From Subtercola frigoramans (GTDB lineage Bacteria; Actinomycetota; Actinomycetes; Actinomycetales; Microbacteriaceae): a stretch of 64,000 nt of DNA. Positions 33,520 to 47,405 of the stretch are shown piece by piece. The DNA is taken from contig NZ_JAFBBU010000001.1 in assembly GCF_016907385.1 (NCBI RefSeq), positions 1,364,001 through 1,428,000 of the forward strand, written 5' to 3'. Numbering within the stretch: the first letter of the stretch is position 1; each line of letters opens with the position of its first letter. The notes beneath the pieces are model-generated. The model was not told the origin of the DNA and did no database searches. It saw only the letters and a program-made list of their open reading frames with translations. The translations under genes and the position numbers were made by a program.

Positions 33520-35028
33520 ATGTCAGACGTCACTTCACCCCTGCCCGTCGTCAACCACTGGATCGACGGCCAGGAGCACGTCAGCAACAGTGGCCGCACC
33601 GCACCCGTCTTCGACCCGGCGAAGGGCGTGCAGACCAAGAGCGTCGCCCTCGCCGATGCCTCAGAGATCGCCGCCGCCATCGCCTCGGCCAAAGCCGCCT
33701 TTCCGGCCTGGCGCGACACCTCGATGGCCAAGCGCCAGCAGATCCTCTTCACCTTTCGCGAGTTGCTGGCGGCACGGCGCGGCGAGCTGGCCGAAATCCT
33801 CACCGAGGAGCACGGAAAGGTGCTGAGCGACGCTGCTGGCGAGATCACCCGCGGCCTCGAGGTCGTCGAATTCGCGACGGGGTTCCCGCATCTCATCAAG
33901 GGCGAGTACTCCGAGAACGTGAGTACCGGTGTCGATGTGTATTCGACGCGCCAGCCCCTCGGTGTTGTCGGGGTCATCAGTCCCTTCAACTTTCCGGCGA
34001 TGGTGCCGCTGTGGTTCTTCCCGATCGCCATCGCTGCCGGCAACACCGTCGTGCTGAAGCCGAGTGAGAAAGACCCGTCGTCGGCGAACTGGCTCGCAGC
34101 ACTCTTCGCCGAAGCCGGCCTTCCCGACGGTGTGCTGAACGTCTTGCACGGTGACAAGGAGGCAGTGGATGGCCTGCTCACGAGCCCCGATGTGAAGTCG
34201 ATCTCGTTCGTGGGTTCGACGCCGATCGCCCAGTACGTGTACGAGACGGCGACGAAGCACGGCAAGCGGGTGCAGGCCCTGGGAGGCGCGAAGAACCACA
34301 TGCTCGTGCTGCCCGACGCCGACCTCGACCTGGCAGCCGACGCGGCCGTGAATGCTGGGTTCGGCTCGGCCGGAGAGCGCTGCATGGCGATCTCCGTCGT
34401 CGTTGCTGTCGAGCCTGTGGCCGACCAGCTCATCTCGAAGATCGTCTCCCGCGTTGCTGGCCTCACGGTGGGCGACGGCCGACGCTCGTGCGACATGGGG
34501 CCGCTTGTCACTGAGGTGCACCGTGACAAGGTCGCCTCCTACATCGACATCGCCACAGAAGACGGCGCCACGGTTGTCGTCGACGGTCGCGGCATCGACG
34601 TCGATGGTGATGCGGACGGCTTCTGGCTCGGCCCGACGCTGATCGACAACGTCTCGACGTCGTCGCGTGTCTACACAGACGAGATCTTCGGCCCGGTGCT
34701 GTCGATCGTTCGCGTGCCCTCCTACGACGCGGGCCTCGAGCTCATCAACGCCTCGCGTTATGGCAACGGCACGGCGATCTTCACCAACGACGGGGGAGCG
34801 GCACGTCGCTTCCAGAACGAGGTCGAAGTCGGCATGATCGGTATCAACGTGCCTATCCCGGTGCCCGTGGCCTACTACTCGTTCGGCGGCTTCAAGGACT
34901 CCATCTTCGGCGACAGCAAGGCGTACGGCCCCGACGGGTTCCACTTCTTCACGCGCCAGAAGGCCATTACCTCGCGCTGGCTCGACCCCAGCCACGGCGG
35001 CATCAACCTCGGTTTTCCGCAGAACTGA
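33520..35028 (+). CDS. mmsA: CoA-acylating methylmalonate-semialdehyde dehydrogenase
   Basis: A 502-residue aldehyde dehydrogenase. The N-terminus NHWIDGQEH and the terminal RQKAITSRW are typical of MmsA/IolA. The cofactor site includes ISPFNFPAMVPLWFFPIAIA, the catalytic Cys is in GSAGERCMAIS, and the Glu position is altered as in CoA-acylating members (ALGGAKNHMLVLPDAD). It converts methylmalonate or malonate semialdehyde to propionyl- or acetyl-CoA in valine and inositol catabolism. AGGAA is upstream of the ATG. Confidence 0.93.
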   Translation: MSDVTSPLPVVNHWIDGQEHVSNSGRTAPVFDPAKGVQTKSVALADASEIAAAIASAKAAFPAWRDTSMAKRQQILFTFRELLAARRGELAEILTEEHGKVLSDAAGEITRGLEVVEFATGFPHLIKGEYSENVSTGVDVYSTRQPLGVVGVISPFNFPAMVPLWFFPIAIAAGNTVVLKPSEKDPSSANWLAALFAEAGLPDGVLNVLHGDKEAVDGLLTSPDVKSISFVGSTPIAQYVYETATKHGKRVQALGGAKNHMLVLPDADLDLAADAAVNAGFGSAGERCMAISVVVAVEPVADQLISKIVSRVAGLTVGDGRRSCDMGPLVTEVHRDKVASYIDIATEDGATVVVDGRGIDVDGDADGFWLGPTLIDNVSTSSRVYTDEIFGPVLSIVRVPSYDAGLELINASRYGNGTAIFTNDGGAARRFQNEVEVGMIGINVPIPVPVAYYSFGGFKDSIFGDSKAYGPDGFHFFTRQKAITSRWLDPSHGGINLGFPQN

Positions 35029-35075
35029 CCCCCGGGCATCCATCGCCTCGGTTCGTGAGGCCCGTGCGTCGAAGC

Positions 35076-35114
35076 GAGGCCGGTCTACCTGGCTCTTCTC
35101 GGCGCACCGGCCTC
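35076..35114. terminator. Candidate hairpin after mmsA
   Basis: GAGGCCGGT and ACCGGCCTC form a perfect 9-bp stem around a 21-nt loop, between mmsA and ychF. No T-run follows. Confidence 0.45.
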
Positions 35115-35144
35115 ACGTGGCAGACCCGGGTACGATAGACCCCC

Positions 35145-36221
35145 GTGGCTCTAACTATCGCAATCGTCGGGCTGCCCAATGTGGGCAAGTCCACCCTGTT
35201 CAATGCACTCACCAAGAACCAGGTGCTGGCGGCGAACTACCCGTTCGCAACCATCGAGCCGAACGTGGGTGTGGTGAACCTGCCGGATGCCCGGCTCGCC
35301 GAGCTCGCGAAGATCTACGGCAGCGAGAAGCTGCTGCCAGCGCCGGTGTCGTTCGTCGACATCGCCGGCATCGTCAAGGGCGCAAGCGTCGGGGAGGGCC
35401 TCGGCAACAAGTTCCTCGCGAACATCCGCGAGGCCGACGCGATCGCGCAGGTCGTGCGCGGGTTCATCGACCCCGACGTGGTGCACGTCGACGGCAAGGT
35501 CGACGCCGCGAGCGACCTCGAGACGATCAACACCGAGCTCATTCTGGCCGACATGCAGACCCTCGAGAAGGCGCTCGCCCGGTACGAGAAAGAGGTCAAG
35601 ACGAAGCGCATCGAGCCGATCGTGCTGCAGACTGCGCAGGCCGCACATGCGATTCTCGACTCCGGCAAGCCGCTGTCCAGCGACTCGAAGATCGACCTCG
35701 AGCCCATCCGAGAGCTCGGCCTTCTCACCGCCAAGCCGTTCATCTACGTGTTCAACATCGACGAGTCGGTGCTCGCCGACCAGGCCAGGCTCGCCGAGCT
35801 CGCCGCTTTGGTTGCTCCCGCAAAGGCGATCTTCCTCGACGCGAAACTCGAATCTGAGCTCATCGACCTCGAGCCCGAAGACGCCGCTGAGCTCCTCGCG
35901 TCGACCGGCCAGGAGGAGAGCGGCCTCGACCAGCTCGCCCGCATTGGCTTCGATACCCTGGGCCTTCAGACCTACCTGACGGCGGGCCCGAAAGAGACCC
36001 GTGCCTGGACCATCGGCAAGGGCTGGACGGCCCCGCAGGCCGCCGGAGTCATCCACACCGACTTCCAGAAGGGCTTCATCAAGGCCGAGATCGTCTCGTT
36101 CGACGACCTGGTCGAGGCTGGCACCATGGCAGAGGCCAAGGCCCGCGGCAAGGTGCGCATCGAGGGCAAAGAATACGTGATGCACGATGGCGACGTGGTG
36201 GAGTTCCGCTTCAACGTCTAG
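35145..36221 (+). CDS. ychF: Redox-regulated ATPase/GTPase YchF (OLA1 family)
   Basis: A 358-residue P-loop protein. The G1 motif is GLPNVGKST, followed by [27 protein letters not shown] (G3 region) and FNIDES (in place of NKxD, hence ATP preference). A coiled-coil insert and the TGS domain with [14 protein letters not shown] at the extreme C-terminus complete it. It acts in ribosome-associated stress control. GTG follows TACGAT by 8 nt. Its last eight codons are the integration site of the downstream island: the present stop TAG belongs to the element, and the probable original end (GTA TGA) is at 44038-44043. Confidence 0.95.
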
Positions 36222-36222
36222 C
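36194..36222 (+). repeat. Attachment site copy 1 (left junction of island)
   Basis: The last codons of ychF contain GGAGTTCCGCTTCAAC, which recurs at 39848 (one mismatch), 43203 and 44021. Upstream of CAACGT it matches the host-side copy at 44017 over 24 nt. Downstream (CTAGC) it matches the element copy at 39848. It is therefore a hybrid junction. Confidence 0.85.
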
Positions 36223-36268
36223 TGGCTCCTCTAGCCCTTTATCTACGCGGATAGTGCATTTTCATTCC

Positions 36269-36445
36269 TCACACATTCTCAGCAGGATCGAAAACCTGCG
36301 CCATTAGCCCTTCAGCCGCGGCCCTGGTGCGGTCCTCAGCCTCGGGCCACAGGTGCGTGTAGGTGTTCAGTTTGACGGTGGGGGTGCTGTGCCCGAGCGT
36401 GTGCTGCACCGTCGAGATGTCGCAGCCGGCCGCGATCGTGCTCAC
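36269..36445 (-). pseudogene. Tyrosine recombinase (phage integrase) C-terminal remnant
   Basis: About 57 codons remain, reading minus strand, ending in TGA. They contain AAGCDISTVQHTLGHSTPT and VKLNTYTHLWPEAEDRTR, i.e. the box II LGH and the region of the catalytic Tyr (NTYTH) of XerC/D-type integrases. Upstream, the frame breaks at about 36445 with a stop, and nothing integrase-like continues. It lies 47 bp inside the left att copy, the usual place for an integrase gene of an element that targets a gene 3' end. Confidence 0.85.
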
Positions 36446-36622
36446 CTACGCCCAGGACGTCGCCGTGCACCGAGCGTCAGCGATCGGCAACGGCTACGGC
36501 CCACCAGCAGGCCCGCGAGGTCGTCGGCCTACAGGCCGCTACATAGGCCACTCTGCAGCTCCGCAACGGCGGCATCGACGAAAAATCATTGTCGCTCGTT
36601 CGACGAGGCTGCTTCAGTGCTC

Positions 36623-36793
36623 ATGCGAGGCGCTCAGGCGTTCGGCATCACCGCGAACACTACCGCGGCCGACATCATCAACCTCGACGACCTCGAGGCG
36701 CACACCATCTGGCGCGAGATCCGCCAGAAGATCAGCGTCCTCGAATCAGTCGCGACCGTCCGCATCAACCTCAGCGGGCTTCTGAACGACTGA
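36623..36793 (+). CDS. Hypothetical fragment
   Basis: A 56-codon open frame with reasonable composition (TAADIINLDDLEAHTIWREI, then a hydrophobic/charged helix). No ribosome binding site is clear, and the sequence just upstream is a different frame. It may be the 3' end of a larger, disrupted gene of the island. It is followed 6 nt later by another small frame. The function is unknown. Confidence 0.3.
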   Translation: MRGAQAFGITANTTAADIINLDDLEAHTIWREIRQKISVLESVATVRINLSGLLND

Positions 36794-36799
36794 CCGACC

Positions 36800-37063
36800 A
36801 TGCTCGAGTCGCTCAGCGCTCGCGGTCAGGATCCCACCTTCAACCCGAACATCATCTTCGACTACACGATCTGCTTCGCAGCAGCAGGCAACTGCGGATT
36901 CGACGGTCGGTTCCACCTCGGCCGCCAACCTGCAGCGGGCATCGGCTGGCTCATTGTGGCATCCACCGGGCTCCGCCTCAACACACCCGCAGAGGTACGT
37001 GACCTGCTCGCAGGGCGACCCGTGCCGCCCGTCGTACCGCTCTACCTGGCCATGCCACAGTAG
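36800..37063 (+). CDS. Hypothetical protein
   Basis: An 87-residue protein without a recognisable domain. Features are NIIFDYTICFAAAGNCGFDGRF (two Cys), GIGWLIVASTGLRL and a Pro-rich end. It starts 6 nt after the preceding frame and is followed by a strong hairpin at 37087-37123, which supports it as a transcribed 3' end. No ribosome binding site is obvious. Confidence 0.4.
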   Translation: MLESLSARGQDPTFNPNIIFDYTICFAAAGNCGFDGRFHLGRQPAAGIGWLIVASTGLRLNTPAEVRDLLAGRPVPPVVPLYLAMPQ

Positions 37064-37086
37064 ATTCACTGCTGCCCCACAGTCGT

Positions 37087-37123
37087 GCCCCCAGTACCCG
37101 CCATGACGGGCTGCTGGGGGCAT
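37087..37123. terminator. Bidirectional terminator hairpin in the island
   Basis: TGCCCCCAG pairs with CTGGGGGCA (9 bp, perfect), with CCCG/CGGG pairing inside the loop and a T-rich stretch after it. It separates a plus-strand frame from the convergent gene ending at 37156. Confidence 0.65.
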
Positions 37124-37155
37124 TCTTCGTCTGTCTTATGCCGTCTGAGATAAGC

Positions 37156-37550
37156 TCACGCGGGAGGCAACAAGGTGACCGCGATATCACCGCTGTAGTC
37201 GACCCCATCGACGGTGCAGAAGCCCGTGAGCCGTCCGCCTGGCTTTATGTGCAGCGAGGCGTCCCGAAAGAACACGGTCACGTTGCCCGGGCAGGCCTCT
37301 ATCTTCTCCGCACCCCGATAGTTCGCCTGCCCCCTCGGATCCCACACCTGCAGAGCCGGCTCATCTGAGACACCGAATCGAACAGCGAACTCCTTGCTGA
37401 TGCCATCGAGCGGGCCGCGCACCGCAACACCGTAGCGGTAACCGATCCACTCGATGGCATCGAAGGACCCCCCAGGAGGAAAGTCACCTTCACACCGTCG
37501 TCTACGACCTGCACGATTATCGAGTCGATCAGAGGGATGCCCATGGCCAT
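37156..37550 (-). pseudogene. Hypothetical protein interrupted by a one-base shift in a G6 run
   Basis: From ATG 37550 the frame encodes GIPLIDSIIVQVVDDGVKVTF up to a run of six G (minus strand, about 37467-37472). One more G would join it to the second frame, GSFDAIEWIGYRYGVAVRGPLDG, which runs to the stop at 37156. The joined product is about 131 residues, beta-rich and soluble (WDPRGQANYRGAEKIEACPGN, VTVFFRDASLHIKPGGR). The indel could be a real mutation, a slippery site or a sequencing error. The family is unknown. Confidence 0.55.
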
Positions 37551-37738
37551 GACGACGTTGTATTCCTTCGGGCAAACAGGCCCCGGGGGTGACCCCCCAA
37601 ACCGCATTGACTGCCAAGCCCGCCGGTGGGTGGCAGTTTTCTCTCTCTGTGCGAATTCGCGCTCACGCCAAATCGAAATGACGCTGATTCGCACTGCGAA
37701 TTGCTGCTCGTCGGCTTCGTGCCCGGTGGCGGTTCGGG

Positions 37739-38008
37739 CTATTTGCCCGTGACGATCGCGATGATTGCGACGACCAGCGCGATGATCGAGGTGCCGGAGC
37801 TGATCCAGGTGAGTCGGTAGCTGCGCCTTGCCAATCGGTGGCTCTCGGCGGCGAGCAGAGTATTCGCTGCCGTAGCGCGCTCACGTGATCGACGCTCGAG
37901 CTCGTCAGCCCAGAAAGAAACACCCGGACTCGTGCTCGGTGCGATGCTGTTGTAGAGGGCGATCACTTCGTCGTCACTCATCGCGCGGATCTGTTCTAGT
38001 GACTGCAT
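37739..38008 (-). CDS. Small membrane protein of the island
   Basis: An 89-residue protein. A charged, helical N-terminal half (SLEQIRAMSDDEVIALYNSI, DELERRSRERATAANTLLAAE) is followed by a single C-terminal transmembrane helix (GTSIIALVVAIIAIVTGK). ATG 38008 is 7 nt from TACGAT on the minus strand, so it may be leaderless. No relatives are recognised. It could be a tail-anchored partner of a neighbour. Confidence 0.6.
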   Translation of the reverse strand: MQSLEQIRAMSDDEVIALYNSIAPSTSPGVSFWADELERRSRERATAANTLLAAESHRLARRSYRLTWISSGTSIIALVVAIIAIVTGK

Positions 38009-38059
38009 GACTCGAATCGTACCGACACTGGCACCCACCCTGGCCCCACCGTGACCTGA

Positions 38060-38947
38060 TTATTGTGATCTTCTCGGTGAGGAAGGCGGTCGCTGCTGCG
38101 CTCTCGTGATCGTGTCGAGCGTGCGTGCATGTTGTGCCACCCAAGGGTCATGGAGCGCCGGTGAACATCCGTAGTAGACGCAGAGCTCGTCGATGATCGT
38201 GAGCGTCATGGAGAAGACCCCTTCGGCGTACTCGCGAGCGTCCCGATCTGATAGGACTATCTCAAGCGTGCCGCCAGTTTCGGTTTTAGTGCTGGTAAGC
38301 ATCTGGCCGATACCGAACGACTGAGCATGCGCGATGGCCGAGAGTCTGGAGTAGACCTGCACACCGTCGGGGCCGAGCAGAGAGCCGTACTCCTGCGCGA
38401 TCAGTGTCGGCTTATAGTCGGCTCGTTTACCCCGCTCCGTGAGGCTCTGAATGTACCTTCCGACCATCGCGGCAATGGATTCCCCGGTGGCTAGCTTTCC
38501 GTTCACGTAGAACTGTGCGCCGTCATAGTGCCTCATATGGATTTCTATCTCGCTCAGGGTCATGGAGGCCCAGCGCAGTACCAGCTCGGTTTCATTTGCG
38601 GCAGTGAGCATCCAGTGGGCCCGCGCGAATGACTCGAGGGCGCCGCGCTGCACGGTCGCTAATGCCAGTGAGCCAATATCGTCATGCAAGGCGTGAGCGA
38701 AAACGTCTGCGTGGTCGAGACCTGCCACGATGGCCATAATGGCCGAGTATTGCGCTTCTCGGACCGGCGCGGAGCCCGCCCACTGTCCGGCGAGAGAAGA
38801 CTGTGCGCCGAGTTGCTTCTCGGCCTCAGTGCCGGGCGAGGGTGGGGCTAAAAGGATGTCCTTGCACAGCGCGAAGCTTGCCTCAACGAAGTCGATCAAA
38901 CTCGATCCGACCTCGCGGGCTGGATACTTGTTGGCTGGCCCTGTCAC
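38060..38947 (-). CDS. Hypothetical helical protein
   Basis: A 295-residue, almost all-alpha protein with no motif I can name. It has a stretch of His/Asp-containing helices (GLDHADVFAHALHDDIGSLALA, RAHWMLTAANETELVLRWASM, EIEIHMRHYDGAQFYVNGK) and AIAHAQSFGIGQM. GTG 38947 is preferred because TATGAT lies exactly 6 nt upstream, matching the leaderless pattern of this genome; a TTG 15 nt further upstream is less likely. It is part of a minus-strand run of three unknown genes in the first island segment. Confidence 0.65.
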   Translation of the reverse strand: MTGPANKYPAREVGSSLIDFVEASFALCKDILLAPPSPGTEAEKQLGAQSSLAGQWAGSAPVREAQYSAIMAIVAGLDHADVFAHALHDDIGSLALATVQRGALESFARAHWMLTAANETELVLRWASMTLSEIEIHMRHYDGAQFYVNGKLATGESIAAMVGRYIQSLTERGKRADYKPTLIAQEYGSLLGPDGVQVYSRLSAIAHAQSFGIGQMLTSTKTETGGTLEIVLSDRDAREYAEGVFSMTLTIIDELCVYYGCSPALHDPWVAQHARTLDTITRAQQRPPSSPRRSQ

Positions 38948-38954
38948 GAGGCGA

Positions 38955-39248
38955 TCATACAAACAACGACCAGATACTCGCGGCGGCCGCTAGTCCGATT
39001 CCGCCGCCGATCAAGACGAGATCTCTTTTCGCAGCGAAGGGTCGCTCCACCACCGCTCTATGTTGTGATTGGGCGAGGACGTTGAATTGCCCGATCGTCA
39101 TCGCGTTGTGCTCACCGGATTTTGGTGCTGCTGCGTCATACTCTTTGCGCTGTGCCATCGCCGAGCGGTAAAGCCCTACTAGGCCGATTAGCGGTAGCAG
39201 TGCTGAAGCAAGCGTCAGCAGAATAAGCAGAGTGCGTTGTGGGTCCAT
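38955..39248 (-). CDS. Hypothetical two-helix membrane protein
   Basis: A 97-residue protein with an N-terminal transmembrane helix (LLILLTLASALLPLIGLVGLY), a hydrophilic loop (EYDAAAPKSGEHNAMTIGQF, then RPFAAKRD) and a C-terminal helix (LVLIGGGIGLAAAASIWSLF). ATG 39248 is 6 nt from TACTGT on the minus strand. Its stop overlaps the -10 hexamer of the next gene, so the two are adjacent but separately transcribed units, or one run. Confidence 0.6.
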   Translation of the reverse strand: MDPQRTLLILLTLASALLPLIGLVGLYRSAMAQRKEYDAAAPKSGEHNAMTIGQFNVLAQSQHRAVVERPFAAKRDLVLIGGGIGLAAAASIWSLFV

Positions 39249-39480
39249 GCTCTGACAGTAGAGGCGAAAAGGAACCATCCCGTTCGCGGCCGGCAGTCAC
39301 CGACCACGAGCCCGCCGATGAGTGCAGGGGCTGCCTTCTCGCGCAGGCTCGGTTCGGATGCCTGTGTGGCTGCTGCTACGGCCGGATGAAGCAGATGATT
39401 CTGAGCGGGAGCGTGTAGTAAGAACCTGGACCGTATTTCGCTGTCTTTGTGTAGAGTCGTTTCAGAGAGCGAGGTTCCCT

Positions 39481-39725
39481 GTGGAAGATGATAAGTACCT
39501 CAACATGCGTGCAGCGCAAGCACGGGTGAACCGTTCACGCATGCGGTCCACCGGCGGCTGAAGCAGGGCATGCCGGGCATCCCCGACGACGGGGCCCGCT
39601 ACATCCTCCTGTCGGATCTTCTTTCCCAGTTCAGGGCTAAGAACGTCAATGCTAGACGCAACCGTTTCGCACTGCGGGAGAAGATCAATGCTTCGCACGA
39701 GGGTAGATTGCCGTCGAATAGTTGA
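39481..39725 (+). pseudogene. Possible frameshifted excisionase-like helix-turn-helix protein
   Basis: From GTG 39481 (GAGCGAGG upstream) the frame reads VEDDKYLNMRAAQARVNRSRM and then stops. A second frame continues RRLKQGMPGIPDDGARYILL and SDLLSQFRAKNVNARRNRFA to TGA 39725. Together they resemble a short MerR-like DNA-binding domain with recognition helix and wing, as in phage excisionases. The assignment is weak, and only the join of the two frames makes it plausible. Confidence 0.35.
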
Positions 39726-39847
39726 TTCGTCAGAAATTCGTCAGTACGCCCGCATTAGACCAGCAATGGCAATGACTGGTAGTGCGACAGTTCCGCGAAA
39801 TCTAGGCAATGTCAGGCATTGCCAGCTACGGCCTTAGATGCCTACAA

Positions 39848-39929
39848 AGTTCAGCTTCAACGTCTAGCCGCCTCGCTCCGCGGTCGTGCCGGGTGCGAAG
39901 CGCGCATGCCTCGAGGTGAAAGTCATTTA
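39848..39929 (+). repeat. Attachment site copy 2 with element-specific right arm
   Basis: The first 21 nt match the ychF end at 36202-36222 with one mismatch. The full 82 nt align without gaps to 43208-43289 at about 73% identity, well beyond the ychF-derived core. It is therefore a diverged copy of an element end rather than a chance ychF match. Confidence 0.75.
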
Positions 39930-40207
39930 TCGTGTTCGGGAGTGAACTCCGCGACGACGGGGTACGTCGCGGACAGGTTGTCGTCGTTTCGTCGGTCCTT
40001 CGCGAGTCGCCAACGGGGGTATTCAGTCACCAGGTCGAACTTGCGACTATCGCCGTTGGCTGGATTCAGCCTGTGGAGAGCTTTCAGAACTGTGGTCTTG
40101 CCAGACTCGTTCTTGCCGACCAAGACCGTCACATCCTCCTCGATCTCAACGCGCTGAGCTTCGACAAAGTTGCGGAAATTCTTAACGGTGACGGCAACGA
40201 GCTTCAC
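39923..40207 (-). pseudogene. OLD/RecF-like AAA ATPase, N-terminal 94 residues only
   Basis: The remnant opens VAVTVKNFRNFVEAQRVEI and has Walker A VLVGKNESGKTTVLKAL, the classic start of OLD-family or AAA-15/21 ATPases linked to a TOPRIM nuclease in phage defence. Full-length relatives have several hundred more residues. Here the frame stops inside the conserved arm of att copy 2, so recombination at the att site probably removed the remainder. AAGGAG lies 7 nt before the GTG. Confidence 0.8.
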
Positions 40208-40427
40208 GGCGATCTCCTTCGGGCATGTAATGAATCAGCTTATGGCCGACATACGACAAACCCACAGGAAGCAAGGGCGCGCCCCCGGCTCGATGAGCCC
40301 AACTCGCGCCTTGTTGGTAGGCACCGGTGATCCTGATTCCGACCCTACGCTTGCGTGCTGAGCGGGCACACGTGAGCGATCGTCTATTCTGATGCGAGGG
40401 CGAAGGGCGCCCGGGAGTGAGGGATTC

Positions 40428-40610
40428 GTGGACTGGTTCTTTGACGGGCTGGGCACCATGATCATCGGCTTGCTTCTCGGGGGTACTGCGGGCAGCACCG
40501 TCACGTGGCGCATCATGTCTAAGCGTTCAACGGTGAAGCAGAAGCAGCACGCTGGCAACAGTGCAACGCAGGTGCAGGTCGGGCGCGATGCAAAAGGGAA
40601 CACGAGATGA
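40428..40610 (+). CDS. Small membrane protein, first gene of a coupled unknown pair
   Basis: A 60-residue protein with one transmembrane helix (MIIGLLLGGTAGSTVTWRIM), then a basic stretch (SKRSTVKQKQHA) and a tail GNSATQVQVGRDAKGN. The tail pattern resembles the Q-V-Q-I/V-x-G-D element at the N-terminus of the next protein. GTG 40428 has GGAGTGAGGGA upstream, and a TATTCT -10 lies about 40 nt before. Its TGA overlaps the next ATG by 4 nt. An ATG 36 nt upstream would start almost on the -10 element and is less likely. Confidence 0.65.
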   Translation: MDWFFDGLGTMIIGLLLGGTAGSTVTWRIMSKRSTVKQKQHAGNSATQVQVGRDAKGNTR

Positions 40611-41674
40611 CGGCTGAGCAAAGCCAGAAGGGCGGACAGGGCTCTAAACAGGTTCAGATCGCAGGCGACTACATAGTCAACGTGGGTATCACCGAGGAGC
40701 GCGCGCAAGAGATTTCTATCGCCACGGCTCGACGTGTCGTCGAGGAGTTCGCGGTCGAGTCGCACCAAATACTGGAAGCTCGGGTTGAAGAACTTGACCA
40801 ACGCGTCATCAAGAACCTATCCAATGCTGACGCGCTCGATTCATTCGCGGACCCCGCCTTTATCCGCTCGTACCGAAAGGCCCAGGAAGGTGCGGCATCC
40901 AGCGAGCGCCCGTCTGACTATGACATGCTGGCGGCGTTGCTAACCGATCGAGCAAAGAACCCGCGCGAGCGCCCACGCATCGTTGGGATCGACGGCGCAA
41001 TCGACATTGTCGATCGCGTGGACGCCGAGGCCCTCCGGGCTCTAACCGTTTGCAATGCGGTCGCGCAGTGGACGCCTACGGGGTCCGTGGTCGGTCAGGG
41101 CCTCCAGCTCCTCGACTCGATCTTCGCGTCGCTCATCGATGGACCCCTGCCCGAAGGTACAGATTGGCTTGACCATCTGGACGCGCTGAACGCCGTCCGC
41201 CGCAACACCCTTGGAGGAATGAAAACGATGGAGCAGTTCTACGGCGAGCAACTCGTTGGCTACATTGCTCCGGGTGTCACTGCCGAGGCGATACCCCAGT
41301 TCGTCGGCGCTGAGCTAGCTGAGGAACCTTGGCCAGTGTTGGTCGTGCCTCACGAGTTGAAGCAGGGGTACTTCCGAACCGGAGTTACGAGCGTCGTTGA
41401 GCTCGAGAAGGTGCTTCGCGCCGCTGGCAAGCCGGACGCATATGTGCAGACGGTGATGAGTCGAGCGGCGTCGGAATTTGGTTTGGGTCAGCAGGACGAC
41501 GCGGCGCGAGCAGAACTGATGACTCGAATTCGTGCGTTATCGAATTTTGGCCTTGTCGCTGATTGGTGGGATCGGAACGCTGAAAATGGGTACTACATCA
41601 CACCCATTGGAAGATCACTTGCCCGAGCGAATGCATTCCGCCTCGACACCGGAAACCGGCTCCCACGCGAGTAG
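40607..41674 (+). CDS. LPO_1073/Vpar_1526-like family protein, second gene of the coupled pair
   Basis: A 355-residue soluble protein of unknown biochemical role. The N-terminus has the short beta motif SKQVQIAGDYIVNVGI, then a helical region beginning EERAQEISIATARRVVEEF and running to about residue 75. The rest is mixed alpha/beta (YDMLAALLTDRAKNPRERPR, then VGIDGAIDIVD) with a C-terminal winged-helix-like end (LSNFGLVADWWDRNAENGYY, then ITPIGRSLARA). The architecture matches what I remember as the LPO_1073/Vpar_1526 family of mobile elements; that recall is unverified. It is translationally coupled to the small membrane protein and sits between two att copies. Confidence 0.65.
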   Translation: MTAEQSQKGGQGSKQVQIAGDYIVNVGITEERAQEISIATARRVVEEFAVESHQILEARVEELDQRVIKNLSNADALDSFADPAFIRSYRKAQEGAASSERPSDYDMLAALLTDRAKNPRERPRIVGIDGAIDIVDRVDAEALRALTVCNAVAQWTPTGSVVGQGLQLLDSIFASLIDGPLPEGTDWLDHLDALNAVRRNTLGGMKTMEQFYGEQLVGYIAPGVTAEAIPQFVGAELAEEPWPVLVVPHELKQGYFRTGVTSVVELEKVLRAAGKPDAYVQTVMSRAASEFGLGQQDDAARAELMTRIRALSNFGLVADWWDRNAENGYYITPIGRSLARANAFRLDTGNRLPRE

Positions 41675-41688
41675 CGTTGATCGAGGTC

Positions 41689-41853
41689 ATGGTTCACGGG
41701 CGAGTGCTCGTCCCCGCTGGGGCTAGTCGGCGCTGCGCAGCAACGGTCCACCATGCATTCCATGCCGCTCACACTAGCCGCGTGCCTGCCAGCCTAGTTA
41801 GCACCGAAGAGGTCGCGACGAAGATTGCAGACACAGTTGTCGTGCACGACTAA
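41689..41853 (+). CDS. Very small hypothetical frame
   Basis: A 54-codon frame with weak GAGG just before ATG. It overlaps the 3' end of the serine recombinase gene tail to tail by 4 nt. It has no known motif and may be a 3' remnant or chance. Confidence 0.2.
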   Translation: MVHGRVLVPAGASRRCAATVHHAFHAAHTSRVPASLVSTEEVATKIADTVVVHD

Positions 41854-43178
41854 CCCTTCCAGGTAACGGACACCGTATCGGGGTCGAACGTCTTCCTGCC
41901 CCGTGGTGCGCGTAGTAGACAGACAGTCATCAGGGTCTCAATAAGTGCTCGCTGCCGATCGAGGTTCAGCGCGCCCAAGCCAGCCCACTGCTCGTCCTCG
42001 CTCAGTAGGGCCACGGGGCTGTCAGCAGCTTGCAGCAGGCGGTCGATCTCTGCCAGGCGCGCGTTCAATCGGTCGCCGGCTTCCTTCACATCAGCGCGAG
42101 ACAGAGTGCCGTCGGCCACGAGGCCAGCTAGGTCAGCCTTGCGCTGGGCGAGCGTGGCGTGCTCGTTTCGCAGCGGGTCGGTCTCGACATCCGGTGTGAG
42201 CGCGGCAAGCGCATCCGGCTGAGTTAGGCGGGCTTCCGCTAACCGGAGCACAAACTCATCCACGGGGGTCATCGTCCGCACCATGCTGCACACCTGGCAC
42301 CAGTACCGCCCGCCCGAGCCAGCCGTGCGCACAGTCGGGTGGTCACCGCATTCACCGCAACGGAAGAGCGACGTGCCCAGGTGCTTGCGTGCCGTGGAGC
42401 CGGTGCGGTTTGACTTGCGAGCTGGGTCCGCCAGACGGCGCGCAACGCTGTCGAACAACTCTTCCGACACGATTGGCTTCCAATCACCTTTGCCCACGAC
42501 TTCACCCTTGTACACGCGCCGCCCTGCGTAACGTGGATTGGTCAGGATCGTGCGCACGGATGAGGGCGTCATGTGTGCCGACAGCGAGGGCGTCGGGGTC
42601 CCGTGGTCTCGCGCCAACGTGCGCAGCGTCAACCCCGTGGAGAACCCATCGAAAAGCGACCGGACGAGACGCGTCTCGTGCGGGATGACGGAGCCATTAG
42701 TCGTGTAACCGGTCAGGCGTACACCCTTGGGGACTCCACCCTTGGCGGCGCGCTGAGTGTTGGCGCGGGTCTGGCGCTCGCCCTTGCGTCGGACCTCGAA
42801 CCTGGCGATGCCTGCGAGCATCGTTGCGCGGAACTCGCCGTCAGCGGTGGACAGGTCAATCTCGCCATCGACCGTGACTACTTGCAGCCCGGCGTCGATT
42901 AGCGTGTTCAGGTCGCGCGTCGAGCGGAGCAGGCGGTCGAGGTCCACCCCGATCACCACGTCGATCAGCCCGCCTCTGGCGTCTCCAAGCATGCGATCCC
43001 AGGCTGTCCCAGCGCCGCGTGCCTTGGAAGCGCTCACACCGTCATCGACGTAGGTCCCGGCCACCGTCCACCCCCGGTGGTCCGCCAGCTGCCGAGTACG
43101 CTCAAGCTGACGGTCAGGGCCGTCACCTGTCTGATCGGACTTAGATTGACGCAGGTACACGGCGGCACGTTTGGTCAC
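41850..43178 (-). CDS. Large serine recombinase (resolvase/invertase domain, integrase type)
   Basis: A 442-residue protein. The N-terminal resolvase domain has the catalytic Ser in AVYLRQSKSD (residue 12) and the motif GVDLDRLLRSTRDL. It is followed by a recombinase domain (GYTTNGSVIPHETRLVRSLF, NPRYAGRRVYKG), a zinc ribbon with two Cys pairs (FRCGECGD, YWCQVCSM) and a C-terminal coiled coil (RNEHATLAQRKADLAGLV). This is the layout of phage-type serine integrases. It lies 20 bp from att copy 3, the usual integrase-att arrangement. The GTG start has only a weak ribosome binding site. It appears intact. Confidence 0.92.
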   Translation of the reverse strand: MTKRAAVYLRQSKSDQTGDGPDRQLERTRQLADHRGWTVAGTYVDDGVSASKARGAGTAWDRMLGDARGGLIDVVIGVDLDRLLRSTRDLNTLIDAGLQVVTVDGEIDLSTADGEFRATMLAGIARFEVRRKGERQTRANTQRAAKGGVPKGVRLTGYTTNGSVIPHETRLVRSLFDGFSTGLTLRTLARDHGTPTPSLSAHMTPSSVRTILTNPRYAGRRVYKGEVVGKGDWKPIVSEELFDSVARRLADPARKSNRTGSTARKHLGTSLFRCGECGDHPTVRTAGSGGRYWCQVCSMVRTMTPVDEFVLRLAEARLTQPDALAALTPDVETDPLRNEHATLAQRKADLAGLVADGTLSRADVKEAGDRLNARLAEIDRLLQAADSPVALLSEDEQWAGLGALNLDRQRALIETLMTVCLLRAPRGRKTFDPDTVSVTWKG

Positions 43179-43198
43179 AAATGCCTAACTTTGGCGTA

Positions 43199-43289
43199 AC
43201 GAGGTGGAGTTCCGCTTCAACTTGTAGCCATCTCGGCCCGCAGTTGTTCCGGGCCCGAAGCACCGATGGTTTGACGCGAGAGCCATTTA
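43199..43289 (+). repeat. Attachment site copy 3
   Basis: It contains GGTGGAGTTCCGCTTCAAC, identical to the ychF end, then diverges at two positions before TAGC and continues with the arm shared with copy 2. It lies directly upstream of the serine recombinase start. Confidence 0.8.
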
Positions 43290-43323
43290 TTTCAGATTCA
43301 CCGGACATATGGGACTCAATTGG

Positions 43324-43329
43324 TAAGCT
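43324..43329 (+). promoter_or_regulatory. -10 element (TAAGCT) of the AbrB-type antitoxin gene
   Basis: TAAGCT is followed by 6 nt and then ATG 43336, with no ribosome binding site. Confidence 0.45.
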
Positions 43330-43335
43330 ATTCCC

Positions 43336-43575
43336 ATGGAAGCGACGATTGATTCTGGCGGCAGACTCCTTCTACCGAAGAGCCTTCGTGATGCCTTGGG
43401 TCTTGGCCCGGGTTCGAAAGTAGACGTGTCGCCCTATGGTGGAGGGCTGCAGGTGACGCCGGGCGGGCGGACTGCGCGGTTGGAGCGGGGTGAAGACGGG
43501 CGTCTGGTGGCCAGTTCAGAGACCTCTGTTTCAGACGATGTTCTTTTCGCACTGATCGATTCCGGGCGAAGGTGA
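43336..43575 (+). CDS. vapB: AbrB/MazE-type antitoxin of a VapBC pair
   Basis: A 79-residue protein. The N-terminal swapped-hairpin DNA-binding domain reads EATIDSGGRLLLPKSLRDAL then GLGPGSKVDVSPYGGGLQV, the AbrB fold. The C-terminal tail, which would wrap the toxin, includes VASSETSVSDDVLFALIDSG. It overlaps the PIN gene by 4 nt (GTGA). The antitoxin would both neutralise the RNase and repress its own promoter. The pair fills the third island segment. Confidence 0.88.
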   Translation: MEATIDSGGRLLLPKSLRDALGLGPGSKVDVSPYGGGLQVTPGGRTARLERGEDGRLVASSETSVSDDVLFALIDSGRR

Positions 43576-44009
43576 ATCCACAGCCACGTTACGCGCTTGA
43601 CACAAGTGTCTCTGTGCCGCTCCTGGTGAAGGCACACGACGCTCACGACGTCGTCTCTGCATGGGCCGCTGGCCGAGTGCTTGGACTCAGCGGACACGCC
43701 CTCGTCGAGACCTACTCGGTTCTGACTCGCCTCCCGGGAGATTCGCGGGTCGATCCCGCTGACGCCGTTCTGCTCATCGACGACAACTTTCCCGAGCATT
43801 TCGTGCTCTCCGCAGAAGCCACGAGCACGTCCCATCGCGAACTCGCGCGGAACGGCGTTTCGGGTGGAGCAACGTACGACGGTCTCGTTGCGCTGGCGGC
43901 CCGGGAGCATGAAGCGGTGCTTGTGACGCGCGATGCGCGGGCCAGACAGACCTACGAGGCCCTGGGCGTGAAGGTGGAGATCATCGCCGTCCCGAGCGTG
44001 TCACGGTGA
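43572..44009 (+). CDS. vapC: PIN-domain toxin (VapC family ribonuclease)
   Basis: A 145-residue PIN domain. The acidic metal-binding residues are seen in YALDTSVSVPLL, HALVETYSVLTRLP and GATYDGLVALAA, with RDARARQTYEALG near the end. VapC toxins cleave tRNA or rRNA loops when freed from antitoxin. The GTG start overlaps the antitoxin stop. It ends 7 bp before att copy 4, so the toxin-antitoxin module is framed on both sides by att repeats and may stabilise the island. Confidence 0.9.
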   Translation: MNPQPRYALDTSVSVPLLVKAHDAHDVVSAWAAGRVLGLSGHALVETYSVLTRLPGDSRVDPADAVLLIDDNFPEHFVLSAEATSTSHRELARNGVSGGATYDGLVALAAREHEAVLVTRDARARQTYEALGVKVEIIAVPSVSR

Positions 44010-44016
44010 GTCGGAA

Positions 44017-44040
44017 CGTGGTGGAGTTCCGCTTCAACGT
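44017..44040 (+). repeat. Attachment site copy 4 (right junction, restores original ychF end)
   Basis: 24 nt are identical to ychF 36194-36217. In the ychF frame the next codons are GTA TGA, which would end the protein as FRFNV, the same residues as now. The TGA overlaps the ATG of the next gene. This marks the original chromosomal sequence on the right side. Confidence 0.85.
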
Positions 44041-44274
44041 ATGAACACCGGCGACGGCGTGCCGGGCCGCGCGAAGGCTTTCGTATGGGATCCCCTCTGG
44101 ACACCGGTCAGCTGGGCTTCGGCCGTGGTGGTTGTTTTTTCCATCATCGCAATATGCGCATTGGGTCGATTCTGGGTTTGGTTGGGATGTGCGTTGATCG
44201 TCCTCGACGTGGCTGCGGTGACACTCCTGGTCATGCGAGAGATGAGGCTCCGAAGGGCGCATGATCGAGAATGA
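44041..44274 (+). CDS. Small two-helix membrane protein, original downstream neighbour of ychF
   Basis: A 77-residue protein with a short polar start, two transmembrane helices (PVSWASAVVVVFSIIAICAL, then FWVWLGCALIVLDVAAVTLL) and a basic C-terminus (REMRLRRAHDRE). Its ATG begins at the last base of att copy 4 and, in the uninterrupted chromosome, would overlap the ychF stop as ATGA. The island has therefore cut it off from ychF translation. No ribosome binding site remains other than what ychF-derived sequence supplies (GTGGAG 10 nt upstream). The function is unknown. Confidence 0.75.
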   Translation: MNTGDGVPGRAKAFVWDPLWTPVSWASAVVVVFSIIAICALGRFWVWLGCALIVLDVAAVTLLVMREMRLRRAHDRE

Positions 44275-44366
44275 CCCGGTCGAGGTCCATGTCGCGATCT
44301 GAATTGATGTCCGTCACGGATGACGTTCTCGCCATCCCCGTCTTCGCGATTTCTCGCAAGTGCTAT

Positions 44367-44411
44367 TTCTTCTCTGAGTAGAAGAATCGCGTTTCTTCTA
44401 TGCGGCAGAAG
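44367..44411. promoter_or_regulatory. Tandem palindromic operator candidates upstream of aceA
   Basis: TTCTTCT-N6-AGAAGAA (44367-44386) is followed by a second copy, TTCTTCT-N7-AGAAG (44393-44411), 26 bp on. They lie 116-160 bp before the isocitrate lyase start. Two evenly spaced inverted repeats of the same sequence suggest cooperative binding of a dimeric regulator of the glyoxylate shunt. The regulator is not identified. Confidence 0.55.
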
Positions 44412-44526
44412 TACCGCGAAACTTCAACCCTGAATTCTCCTGATGGGTGGGTGTTCTTTGCCCAGAGTGGTCATATGCGCTGAAGCCACTACACAGCGCA
44501 GCCCCACTCATAACGAAGGACGAAAC

Positions 44527-46119
44527 ATGACCGCCTACCAGGACGACATCGAAGCGATCGAAGCGCTGAAGCAGGAAGCCGGCAGCAGCTGGGATGCCAT
44601 CAGCCCCGAGTCGGTCGCCCGCATGCGCTCACAGAACCGCTTCCGCACGGGCCTCCAGATCGCCCAGTACACCGCGGACATCATGCGCAAGGACATGGCG
44701 GAGTACGACGCTGATTCGTCTGTCTACACCCAGTCGCTCGGCGTCTGGCACGGCTTCATCGGCCAGCAGAAGCTCATCTCGATCAAGAAGCACCTCAAGA
44801 CCACCAACAAGCGTTACCTCTACCTGTCGGGCTGGATGGTTGCTGCGCTGCGTTCGGAATTCGGGCCTCTCCCTGACCAGTCCATGCATGAGAAGACGGC
44901 CGTCCCGGCGCTCATCGAGGAGCTCTACACGTTCCTTCGCCAGGCCGACGCCCGTGAGCTCGACCTGCTTTTCACGAGACTGGATGCCGCCCGCGCCGCG
45001 GGCGACGAGACCTCGAGCGAGCTCATCCAGGCGCAGATCGACAACTACGAGACCCACGTCGTGCCGATCATCGCCGACATCGACGCTGGCTTCGGTAACC
45101 CGGAGGCCACGTACCTGCTGGCCAAGAAGATGATCGAGGCAGGCGCCTGCGCCCTCCAGATAGAGAACCAGGTCTCCGACGAGAAGCAGTGTGGTCACCA
45201 GGACGGCAAGGTCACGGTTCCCCACGAGGACTTCATCGCCAAGATCAACGCGGTGCGTTACGCGTTCCTCGAACTCGGCATCGACAACGGCGTGATCGTC
45301 TCGCGCACCGACTCGCTCGGCGCCGGCCTCACGCAGAAGCTCGCTGTGAGCCGCACGCCCGGCGACCTCGGCGACCAGTACAATTCGTTCCTCGACGTTG
45401 AGGAGATCCCCGAGGCGGGGCTCAGCGATGGCGACGTCGTCATCAAGCGTGACGGCAAGCTCGTGCGCCCGAAACGACTGCCCAGCAACCTCTTCCAGTT
45501 CAGAGAGGGAACCGGTGAGGAGCGTTGCGTGCTCGACAGCATCACCTCGCTGCAGAACGGTGCCGACCTGCTGTGGATCGAGACGGAGAAGCCGCACATC
45601 GCTCAGATCGCCGGAATGATGAACGAGGTTCGCAAGGTCATCCCGAACGCCAAGCTGGTCTACAACAACAGCCCGTCTTTCAACTGGACCACCAGCTTCC
45701 GCCAGCAGGCCTATGACGCCTTCGTCGAAGAGGGCAAAGACGTCTCGGCGTACGACCGCAGCAAGCTCATGGGCGTCGAGTACGACGACACCGAACTGGC
45801 GCTGGTTGCCGATGAGAGCATCCGCACCTTCCAGCGCGACAGCTCGGCACAGGCCGGTATCTTCCACCACCTGATCACGCTGCCCACGTACCACACGGCT
45901 GCGCTGTCGACGGATGACCTGGCCAAGGGCTACTTCGCCGACCAGGGCATGCTCGCCTACGTCAAGGGCGTGCAGCGCCGCGAGATCCGTGAGGGAATCG
46001 CCACAGTGAAGCACCAGAACATGGCCGGATCCGACATCGGTGACAACCACAAGGAGTACTTCGCCGGCGATTCGGCCCTCAAGGCCGGCGGCGAGAACAA
46101 CACGATGAACCAGTTCTAG
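44527..46119 (+). CDS. aceA: Isocitrate lyase
   Basis: A 530-residue enzyme cleaving isocitrate to glyoxylate and succinate, first step of the glyoxylate shunt for growth on acetate or fatty acids. The active-site Cys lies in SDEKQCGHQDGKVTVPHEDF, the long-isoform version of the KKCGH motif as in Pseudomonas AceA. VPIIADIDAGFGNPEATYLL and VSRTDSLGAGLTQKL supply metal and substrate residues. The length fits the 530-residue subclass rather than the 430-residue E. coli form. GAAGGACGAAAC precedes the ATG. No malate synthase gene is in the window. Confidence 0.95.
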   Translation: MTAYQDDIEAIEALKQEAGSSWDAISPESVARMRSQNRFRTGLQIAQYTADIMRKDMAEYDADSSVYTQSLGVWHGFIGQQKLISIKKHLKTTNKRYLYLSGWMVAALRSEFGPLPDQSMHEKTAVPALIEELYTFLRQADARELDLLFTRLDAARAAGDETSSELIQAQIDNYETHVVPIIADIDAGFGNPEATYLLAKKMIEAGACALQIENQVSDEKQCGHQDGKVTVPHEDFIAKINAVRYAFLELGIDNGVIVSRTDSLGAGLTQKLAVSRTPGDLGDQYNSFLDVEEIPEAGLSDGDVVIKRDGKLVRPKRLPSNLFQFREGTGEERCVLDSITSLQNGADLLWIETEKPHIAQIAGMMNEVRKVIPNAKLVYNNSPSFNWTTSFRQQAYDAFVEEGKDVSAYDRSKLMGVEYDDTELALVADESIRTFQRDSSAQAGIFHHLITLPTYHTAALSTDDLAKGYFADQGMLAYVKGVQRREIREGIATVKHQNMAGSDIGDNHKEYFAGDSALKAGGENNTMNQF

Positions 46120-46138
46120 GGCTCGTTCTTCCGCACCA

Positions 46139-46173
46139 AACGATGCCGGTCTCCGAGGGAGGCCGGCATCGTT
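46139..46173 (+). terminator. Terminator after aceA
   Basis: AACGATGCCGG pairs perfectly with CCGGCATCGTT (11 bp) around a GGAG/CTCC-containing loop, 20 nt past the aceA stop. Confidence 0.75.
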
Positions 46174-46338: not shown

Positions 46339-46800
46339 ATGACGACTCTGCCCACTGCCTCTGCTCTTCGCCGCGTCGGAGGTCTTGCCCTCGTTGCGGG
46401 TTCGGTGTTCGTTTCCGTCGGCGCGAGTGCCTGGCTCACCGTCTCCAAGCAGCTCAGCGATGAGAAGATCACGGTTCCCGGCAACGCACCCAGGTTCAAG
46501 GGCAAACCGGTGAAGGGCCCGGCAACCGCCTACGTCGAGGCGCTCGTCATCAAGAGCAACGCCGAGCGTGGTGCAGGCGGGCGCACTTTCGCCGACATCA
46601 GTGAGGCCTTGCGGGGCGTCGAGGCCGGCAGTGCCGAGGAGACCGAGCTGCGCAAACAGAGTTCGTCGCTGTCGACGGGGGCAGCACTTCGTACATCGCT
46701 GATGACTTCGGTGCTCGCCTTCGGCGTGAGCGCCTTTGCCGTCGGTCTCGGTGCGTTCTTTCTCATCGTGGGTTCGCAGCTGGGTCGAGTCCGCCGGTAA
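46339..46800 (+). CDS. Actinobacterial membrane protein (often misnamed LigA)
   Basis: A 153-residue protein with two transmembrane helices (about residues 13-34 and 118-145). The exposed loop has the conserved patch DEKITVPGNAPRFKGKPVKG then PATAYVEALVIKSNA. I associate this pattern with a widespread actinobacterial family that databases sometimes label 'aromatic ring-opening dioxygenase LigA', a name the sequence does not support since no dioxygenase motif exists. AAAGGA is upstream of the ATG. The function is unknown. Confidence 0.75.
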   Translation: MTTLPTASALRRVGGLALVAGSVFVSVGASAWLTVSKQLSDEKITVPGNAPRFKGKPVKGPATAYVEALVIKSNAERGAGGRTFADISEALRGVEAGSAEETELRKQSSSLSTGAALRTSLMTSVLAFGVSAFAVGLGAFFLIVGSQLGRVRR

Positions 46801-46940
46801 CGTGGCTTGACCCTCGCTCTGGCTGACCAGGCATCTCTGGCTCAGCGAGCATCTGTGGCTCAGCGGAGCAGCTTTGGAGAAGCGACGGTGGTCGCGATCG
46901 CGCTACCGTGGGGTGCCAGCGTTGCACACCAGGAGGAACC

Positions 46941-47405
46941 ATGCCGTACGTCGTCGATTTCCAGAATGTCTCAACCGTCGGGCTGGAGACGTCTCCGTTC
47001 GCCGACACCCTTGCGGGCCTGCGCGCTAACGAGGCACGGTACTTCAAGAACAAGTACGACCACGTGTTCGAGGTCACCTCGGTTGATGACGATCCTGCGA
47101 CGCTCGAGTGGGTGACGGGCATCCTGAACGACGAGCGTGACATCGTCATCGGTTCTCGCCCACTCGAGGTGACTTCCTTCGAAGTGGAGGGCATTCGCAT
47201 GGCGTACGTCTTCTACGAATCCGGCTTGTCGATAAACGTGATGTACAGCGTCGAAGACGGGGGCAAGCGAGCGGTCGGCTTCAAGCTCTCCGACGGCATG
47301 GAGATCCCTGAAGAGCTGGAATCGCGGTTCAAGTTCGCCCGCCAGAAGTCGAAATTAGCGGGAACGATTCGCGGCTCGTACTTCGTGATCAAGGGCGAGC
47401 ACTGA
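46941..47405 (+). CDS. Hypothetical protein (beta-rich, soluble)
   Basis: A 154-residue protein with a perfect AGGAGG 5 nt before ATG. It opens MPYVVDFQNVSTVGLETSPF and continues ANEARYFKNKYDHVFEVTSV, ERDIVIGSRPLEVTSFEV and IRMAYVFYESGLSINVMYSV. There are no transmembrane or catalytic motifs. The C-terminal part is Lys/Arg-rich. I do not recognise the family. The strong ribosome binding site suggests high expression. Confidence 0.7.
   Translation: MPYVVDFQNVSTVGLETSPFADTLAGLRANEARYFKNKYDHVFEVTSVDDDPATLEWVTGILNDERDIVIGSRPLEVTSFEVEGIRMAYVFYESGLSINVMYSVEDGGKRAVGFKLSDGMEIPEELESRFKFARQKSKLAGTIRGSYFVIKGEH

Follow-up and report, generated by a model that had tools for sequence, protein, structure and literature searches.

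The 3' end of ychF as a probable, repeatedly used attachment site of several mobile-element families in Microbacteriaceae

Introduction

What has been inserted behind ychF in Subtercola frigoramans (Microbacteriaceae), and is the end of this gene also a target for other elements? The question arises from a 64,000-nucleotide (nt) window of this genome (NZ_JAFBBU010000001.1, positions 1,364,001-1,428,000 of the forward strand), in which the last codons of ychF recur downstream of the gene. A preliminary description of the window had proposed one island of 7.8 kb (36194..44043), inserted at the 3' end of ychF without loss of the reading frame. The insertion and the kept frame were confirmed by comparison with a related genome and by reading the copies in frame; the single island had to be given up. 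Our analyses suggest that the 3' end of ychF is, with good probability, a chromosomal attachment site that has been used repeatedly by several mobile-element families in Microbacteriaceae. Genomes and loci are referred to by working labels (G and L numbers).

Copies of the ychF end and the island-free site

The window contains four copies of the ychF end (Table 1). The repeat finder placed them at 36193, 39839 (67% over 30 nt), 43199 (90%), and 44016 (87% over 30 nt). The first and the last share an exact repeat of 25 nt (36193-36217 and 44016-44040), which occurs exactly twice in the window and not at all on the opposite strand. The perfect repeat first described is real, and its length is 25 nt (44016-44040) instead of 24 nt (44017-44040). 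In the second copy, 20 of 21 nt are identical within 39848-39868; the ychF end is matched there in its 3' half, which is also true of G164 and G286. In frame with ychF, the three downstream copies translate to FSFNV-stop, FRFNL-stop, and FRFNV-stop, in this order. The window letters also bear out that the far copy runs on as GTA TGA in this frame, overlapping the ATG of a gene for a 77-amino-acid protein.

Twelve genomes of the genus were compared, including the window genome. One of them, G004, encodes an identical YchF. At about 94.6% identity, its DNA runs collinear with window positions 34333-36222 and continues directly with 43199-46170. This collinearity defines a recent insertion of 7,006 bp (36193-43198), which ends at the 43199 copy; the island-free site of G004 is exact to the base. 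As far as the comparison with G004 shows, the 7,006-bp insertion is unique to the window lineage. The last 817 bp, from the VapBC pair up to the 44016 copy, are present in G004 too. A single event that placed one 7.8-kb island between ychF and the gene at 44041 would agree with the exact 25-nt repeat at both outer ends. It is extremely improbable, because the right-hand 817 bp with VapBC and the 44016 copy are present in G004, which lacks the 7,006 bp to their left, and because two further copies lie inside the proposed island. It would hold only if G004 had lost precisely these 7,006 bp between two copies.

The preliminary description had also predicted an empty site with ychF directly before the 77-amino-acid gene. 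Such a site was found in none of the 12 genus genomes, and the gene stands behind VapBC in both of its carriers. An ancestral pair of ychF and this gene may fairly be deduced from the 44016 copy, and is unseen in the genomes. In G009, ychF is directly followed by a gene of the 46339 type, and in G005 and G001 isocitrate lyase lies in between. In G005 (L043), a VapBC pair was also seen about 2.4-3.1 kb past the ychF end, between the genes of the 46339 and 46908 types; its VapC is apparently frameshifted (two overlapping tblastn pieces). G012 carries extra ychF-like pieces (61-82% identity) at the start of contig C1 and on contig C2, besides the full gene.

Layers of the window insertion

The 7-kb insertion is a composite of a decayed tyrosine-integrase element (E1) and an element with an intact large serine recombinase (E2). 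The catalytic C-terminal motif LGH...Y, which we take to be diagnostic of tyrosine integrases, stands beside the left attachment site; the window has the remnant only, and G164 has an open reading frame (ORF) of 383 amino acids. The start of the serine recombinase gene points at the 43199 copy, 20 bp apart. PADLOC detected only the truncated ATPase and a marginal PDC-S52 match in the window cargo. The 66 nt behind the 39848 and 43199 copies are alike (score 28; maximum 13 in 1000 shuffles). When 299 family genomes were searched with the DNA behind the 43199 copy, good matches were found in G000 and G004, and two others matched over 24-37 nt. Since few genomes match, this DNA could be either an element end or the native ychF trailer.

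We propose that an element would recombine within the last ychF codons. The ychF side would gain the left end of the element, which would again encode a YchF C-terminus and a stop, and the displaced chromosomal 3' end would be left as a direct repeat at the far end. With repeated insertions, arrays would build up, each insertion pushing the previous ychF end downstream. In the window, the older VapBC segment (to 44040) would have come first, then the serine element (39869-43198), and then the now-decayed tyrosine element (36222-39847). We infer from the sequence that the joining may have been done by these recombinases, that events may have followed this order, and that small cassettes may have been moved in trans by ychF-specific serine recombinases.

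Table 1. Features of the ychF region in the window
Feature	Position	Strand	Basis or remark
ychF	35145..36221	+	Insertion target; Pfam YchF-GTPase_C and MMR_HSR1; 100% amino acid identity to G004
ychF-end copy 1, left junction	36193..36222	+	Repeat finder, G004 comparison
Element E1, decayed tyrosine-integrase element with uncharacterised ORFs	36222..39847		Bounded by the copies at 36193 and 39848
C-terminal remnant of a tyrosine integrase, 58 amino acids	36272..36445	-	Translation; relatives right behind ychF in G164, G248, G286, G323
ychF-end copy 2, probable right junction of E1	39848..39868	+	Repeat finder
Element E2 with large serine recombinase	39869..43198		Left limit inferred
Truncated OLD/AAA_15-type ATPase N-terminus	39923..40207	-	Pfam AAA_15 3.6e-14, 48/374 profile positions; PADLOC AriA/GajA N-terminus
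LPO_1073/Vpar_1526 family protein, 355 amino acids, cargo	40607..41674	+	NCBIfam NF045477, 60 bits (cut-off 45)
Large serine recombinase, 442 amino acids, intact ORF	41850..43178	-	Pfam Resolvase and Recombinase; PHROG 95 integrase
ychF-end copy 3, right junction of recent insertion	43199..43228	+	Collinearity with G004 breaks here
VapB/MazE-type antitoxin	43336..43575	+	Pfam MazE_antitoxin
VapC-type PIN toxin	43572..44009	+	Pfam PIN; homologues adjoin ychF in G002, G004, G008
ychF-end copy 4, junction also in G004	44016..44040	+	Exact repeat, G004 comparison
Membrane gene, 77 amino acids	44041..44274	+	Only in G000 and G004 among 12 genus genomes
Two genes, 46339-46800 and 46908-47405	46339..47405	+	Lie downstream of ychF in the majority of the genus regions read

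Copies of the ychF end across the family

A strict junction pattern was found in 13 of 398 family genomes, and the reversed-pattern control in none. In 12 of the 13 genomes, the pattern lies downstream of ychF on the same strand, at a distance of 0.6 to 24 kb; in the thirteenth (G098), it lies on another contig. A survey with an 18-nt core covered 804 kb downstream of ychF in 86 genomes, within 10 kb of the gene. On the ychF strand, 15, 21, 34, and 44 copies were counted at no more than 0, 1, 2, and 3 mismatches, and the opposite strand gave 0, 0, 1, and 4 at the same levels; the reversed pattern gave 0. The copies downstream of ychF are not chance. Thirteen of the 86 genomes had been included via the junction-pattern or recombinase search, or as the window genome and G004. 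A copy within 10 kb is present in 15 of the 73 genomes not picked for copies, which is no unbiased rate because many of the 73 are congeners of picked genomes.

At any distance read, 36 same-strand copies were found in 27 of 85 genomes (G004 was left out as a duplicate of the window). Eight genomes have two or more copies. Over all 36 copies, the spacings have a median of 1.5 kb. Segment lengths grade from 0.6 to 24 kb, and 29 of the 36 segments are no longer than 3 kb. The stop is kept as the second codon past the core in 32 of 36 copies, and 25 of the 28 testable copies encode the last residue of their own host YchF (V or N); both are expected of displaced ychF ends. The match in the last residue would also agree with an origin of the copies by homologous recombination or tandem duplication of the ychF end, with no site-specific recombination. 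A few copies with a native-like GGCGACGTG arm, such as the second copy in G289 and the copy in G288, would fit this origin as well. We consider it highly unlikely, because most copies have a non-ychF arm that is common across genera, and because serine recombinase genes lie 20 to about 60 bp from a copy.

The arms were compared at the position six nucleotides left of the core (-6). This position is A in 22 of the 31 junctions without an adjacent serine recombinase, and G in 85 of 86 native ychF genes. The arms next to serine recombinases have A in 4 of 5 cases. A cassette-arm model of 14-mers was built from the 31 arms. Beside serine recombinases, it scored 15.8 in G289, 11.1 in G067, 9.1 in G357, 7.8 in G109, and 1.9 in the window; random 14-mers attain these five scores in 5e-6 to 1.5e-2 of cases. 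The model clearly separates only G289 and G067 from native arms, and G357 lies slightly above them.

Tandem arrays were found in G097, G115, G117, and G314. The 3.7-kb array of G115 contains two cassettes; the same flank starts at the ychF stop in its congener G373, and within 3 bp of the ychF stop in G419, G272, and G228, which miss about the first 23 nt. In G097 (L118), a three-cassette array 0-4.1 kb behind ychF holds ordinary-looking metabolic genes and not defence genes: one of the CMD family (Pfam), and others that are cupin-like and RpiB-like by eye.

Serine recombinases beside the copies

The large serine recombinase of the window contains Resolvase and Recombinase domains. Residues Y8, R10, S12, C274, C277, and C294 are invariant across four sequences; they presumably represent the YxRxS active site and the zinc-ribbon cysteines. 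The gene adjoins the attachment site at about 15-60 bp in other loci. Relatives at E 1e-40 or better occur in 39 of 398 family genomes, the window included. The regions around the ten best foreign relatives were inspected. In G067 (74%), G109 (76%), and G289 (50%), a ychF-end copy lies immediately outside the start of the recombinase, and ychF itself is 12.7 kb, 7.7 kb, and 24.2 kb off, respectively, on the same strand; the layout of the window is seen again in other genera. The other seven regions contain no ychF-end copy at up to 3 mismatches.

In total, 94 loci were checked, namely 80 of the 87 named-scan loci and 14 viral-contig loci. In four of them, no more than about 60 bp separate the recombinase from ychF or its copy: L126 (Microbacterium hominis NBRC 15708), L127 (Curtobacterium sp. 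ZW137), L128 (Frigoribacterium sp. PhB116), and L186 (Cellulomonas uda NBRC 3747). L128 and G289 are the same record and represent one insertion. These four are the best full-length named tblastn matches (46-71% identity). Full-length relatives with at least 46% identity by tblastn were thus located at ychF in G067, G109, G289, L126, L127, and L186. In L126 and L127, the element carries its recombinase at the other end, no more than about 25 bp behind ychF, and a right copy was not found within 10 kb at 2 mismatches. In L129 (44%) and L149 (38%), a core copy lies far away from the recombinase. The copy of L149 (Tessaracoccus massiliensis), near 20670, is ychF-end-like with an AACGTC arm; it is located outside Microbacteriaceae and 9 kb from the distant serine recombinase.

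A phage or plasmid origin of the recombinase was considered by similarity and rejected, as the best listed phage and plasmid relatives are 34.5% and 31% identical, respectively. The best viral-contig match among the 14 loci reaches 62% and equals the Curtobacterium locus in both identity and coverage. YchF itself gave only low-identity or metagenomic matches in phages, which were not used.

Some insertions rewrite the last residues of YchF (FRHS, FRFSK). In the serine-recombinase insertions at ychF other than that of the window, YchF ends with FRHS, not FRFN(V/N), and the arm is YCACAGYTA. G122 also ends with FRHS, through different codons, and no recombinase was detected there.

Tyrosine integrases and further element families

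Relatives of the tyrosine-integrase remnant (1e-8) were found in 24 of 398 genomes, the window's included. Five of 25 loci lie directly behind ychF: those of the window, G164, G248, G286, and G323. In G164, the 383-amino-acid integrase ORF is followed by phage-like ORFs, including one of 844 amino acids that is tape-measure-like by eye. The far copies of G164 and G286, and the one at 39848 in the window, match mostly the 3' part of the ychF end (GTTCCGCTTCAAC...). The FRHS-type junctions share the 5' part (GTGGAGTTCCG). Judged from these matches, each of the two recombinase classes seems to have its own cutting place within the same ychF codons. The tyrosine-type junctions of G164, G286, and 39848 score -7.7 to -17.9 on the cassette-arm model.

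Other families may also use this site. G357 has a further recombinase (282 amino acids, Resolvase domain) beside a copy, next to a GmrSD restriction enzyme. Its YchF (L295) has a longer tail after EFR (such as IGSTSAGAK), and similar tails were found in G361 (L252), G229 (L292), and G247 (L302); these tails were apparently written by inserted elements. In G011 (L041) and G232 (L285), which belong to different genera, YchF ends with FRFSK and the DNA is nearly identical for at least 150 bp beyond. This likeness may be taken as a sign of transfer, and of another element family at the ychF site. Similar DNA was also seen right behind a ychF-type end in three genera (G102, L121; G018, L047; G098, L125); in G018 it leads into a HigB-like toxin gene.

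Several observations weigh against repeated site-specific use of the ychF end, or limit its reach. No exact 18-nt copy is present in 72 of the 86 regions. The right arm of the window scores only 1.9, which 1.5% of random 14-mers equal, and the left end of its serine element is without the CACAG-type arm of the FRHS insertions. The median score of native ychF arms is 7.4 and their maximum 8.6, which G109 (7.8) does not exceed. In the empty-site test of 11 arrays, only G115 was exact or nearly so, and G314 and G410 were approximate. No matching flank was found in congeners for G231, G017, G117, G289, G067, and G109. G018 gave one 51-bp match, and the flank of G157 was met 2.4-8.7 kb away from ychF in seven of eight congeners and matched only partly in the eighth. 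In G002 and G008, VapBC stands behind ychF and no right-hand copy is present, so the VapBC segment may be ancestral. The identity limit for recombinases at ychF is thin: G015 (48%, or 44% by tblastn) is not at ychF, which is on another contig, and N-terminal-only matches of 47-51% are not at ychF either. The viral locus L206 (62%) begins at the recombinase, and its flank cannot be judged. Finally, no excised circle or recombination was observed.

Cargo of the small segments

The ORFs of the foreign cassettes were called mechanically. Pfam was applied to 20 of the 32 located ORFs and PADLOC to 10 of those; the choice was made by hand and is biased to long ORFs. Seventeen of these 20 proteins near the junctions have a Pfam family, and three have none. 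Thirteen are of kinds common in defence or toxin-antitoxin systems: Abi_2, two AAA_21, HNH, PDDEXK, TIR, MNT/HTH, HepT, GmrSD, N6 methylase, HTH, HipA, and HigB. The remaining four with a family are two Resolvase proteins and two other enzymes (GNAT, CMD). PADLOC assigned AbiD in G157, AbiLi in G017, PtuA with a partner (PDC-M01A and B) in G410, a type IIG restriction-modification system in G247, and PDC-S26 in G115 (partial).

Seven bounded segments hold a module with no recombinase detected. These modules are AbiD (G157), AbiL-like (G017), Septu-like (G410), TIR (G018), HepT (G123, with MNT), PD-(D/E)XK (G115), and VapBC (the window and G004). Several lie near both segment ends, such as AbiD within 1.1 kb in G157. 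Three cases were for this reason left out of the count: HigB of G018, which lies past the last copy; G229, where no copy is present; and G247, whose only copy has 2 mismatches and lacks the shared arm. A crude motif scan detected recombinases in few segments. A regular-expression scan for tyrosine integrases near ychF found none in 86 regions, and the protein search found five loci; the expression is thus too strict, and the absence of recombinases from the small segments is not proven by it.

These results may point to a cassette system at the 3' end of ychF in Microbacteriaceae, which we put forward as a real possibility, somewhat short of probable. Its units would be 0.6-3 kb long, typically with one defence or toxin-antitoxin module and a ychF-end site. 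They would be moved in trans by the serine recombinases of larger cousins and stacked in the manner of integrons, with the YchF C-terminus rewritten or restored each time. The small segments could also be relics of larger integrase-bearing elements from which all but a cargo gene has been deleted. The site does harbour decayed integrases (the 36272 remnant, and ORFs of only 87-126 amino acids at the match in G286, G248, and G323), and the gradient of segment lengths would fit such decay. This origin is conceivable, but we incline to doubt it: the short segments predominate, several have their module close to both ends, and each of the four tandem arrays would require the same outcome repeatedly.

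For the search for new anti-phage systems, the ychF end offers a predictable location: its segments are small and bounded on both sides, and several hold a single module, some of these unnamed. It also allows a direct test of whether single-module defence cassettes travel via recombinases supplied in trans. The findings further suggest that two recombinase classes have converged on one codon-level target. The recombinases might offer a new genome-integration target in Actinobacteria.

Comparison with known systems

In integrons, which are characterised by IntI together with attI and folded attC sites, small cassettes pile up in tandem behind one fixed site. The tandem small cassettes at ychF are similar, but the target is a coding 3' end, and the recombinases nearby are serine or phage-type tyrosine recombinases. 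Large serine integrases of actinophages use gene 3' ends, such as Bxb1 in groEL1. They share with the window recombinase the Resolvase and Recombinase domains and a gene beside the attachment site, whereas the best listed phage relative is the distant one given above.

The preliminary description had called ychF an unfamiliar integration target, and no precedent was met in the portions seen of the openly licensed PubMed Central papers searched. These gave only pneumococcal prophages beside ychF, whose attachment site, according to the excerpts consulted, is intergenic and upstream of ychF (PMC10383233, PMC8637289), not at its 3' end. Openly licensed PubMed Central papers on integrases, genomic islands, or attachment sites in Microbacteriaceae contained none on ychF; an earlier mention elsewhere is possible. 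In the parts of other papers that were seen, ychF appears as a marker gene for trees, and YchF among the genes of a staphylococcal region called as a prophage.

The closest parallel is with the SCC and ECC elements at the 3' end of rlmH. According to the sections seen of two papers (PMC6222049, PMC10581047), these have a large serine recombinase, direct repeats of about 18-50 bp, composites, and recombinase-free pseudo-SCC forms. The ychF system likewise has a large serine recombinase, the 3' end of a conserved gene as target, direct repeats at both ends, and a target gene that is kept. Recombinase-free forms (by the crude motif scan) and tandem composites (eight genomes with tandem copies) are also found. 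The differences are the target, which is ychF and not rlmH, the actinobacterial host, and a tyrosine integrase family that uses the same gene end. The segments here have a median of 1.5 kb, compared with 18-32 kb for SCC and ECC elements in those sections. The window recombinase also falls short of the Ccr families of NCBIfam, with 64.5 bits for CcrB (cut-off 900), 50.6 for CcrC (900), and 30 for CcrA (700). Since the Ccr cut-offs are missed and the target is another gene, the ychF system works like SCC, but is not a member of it.

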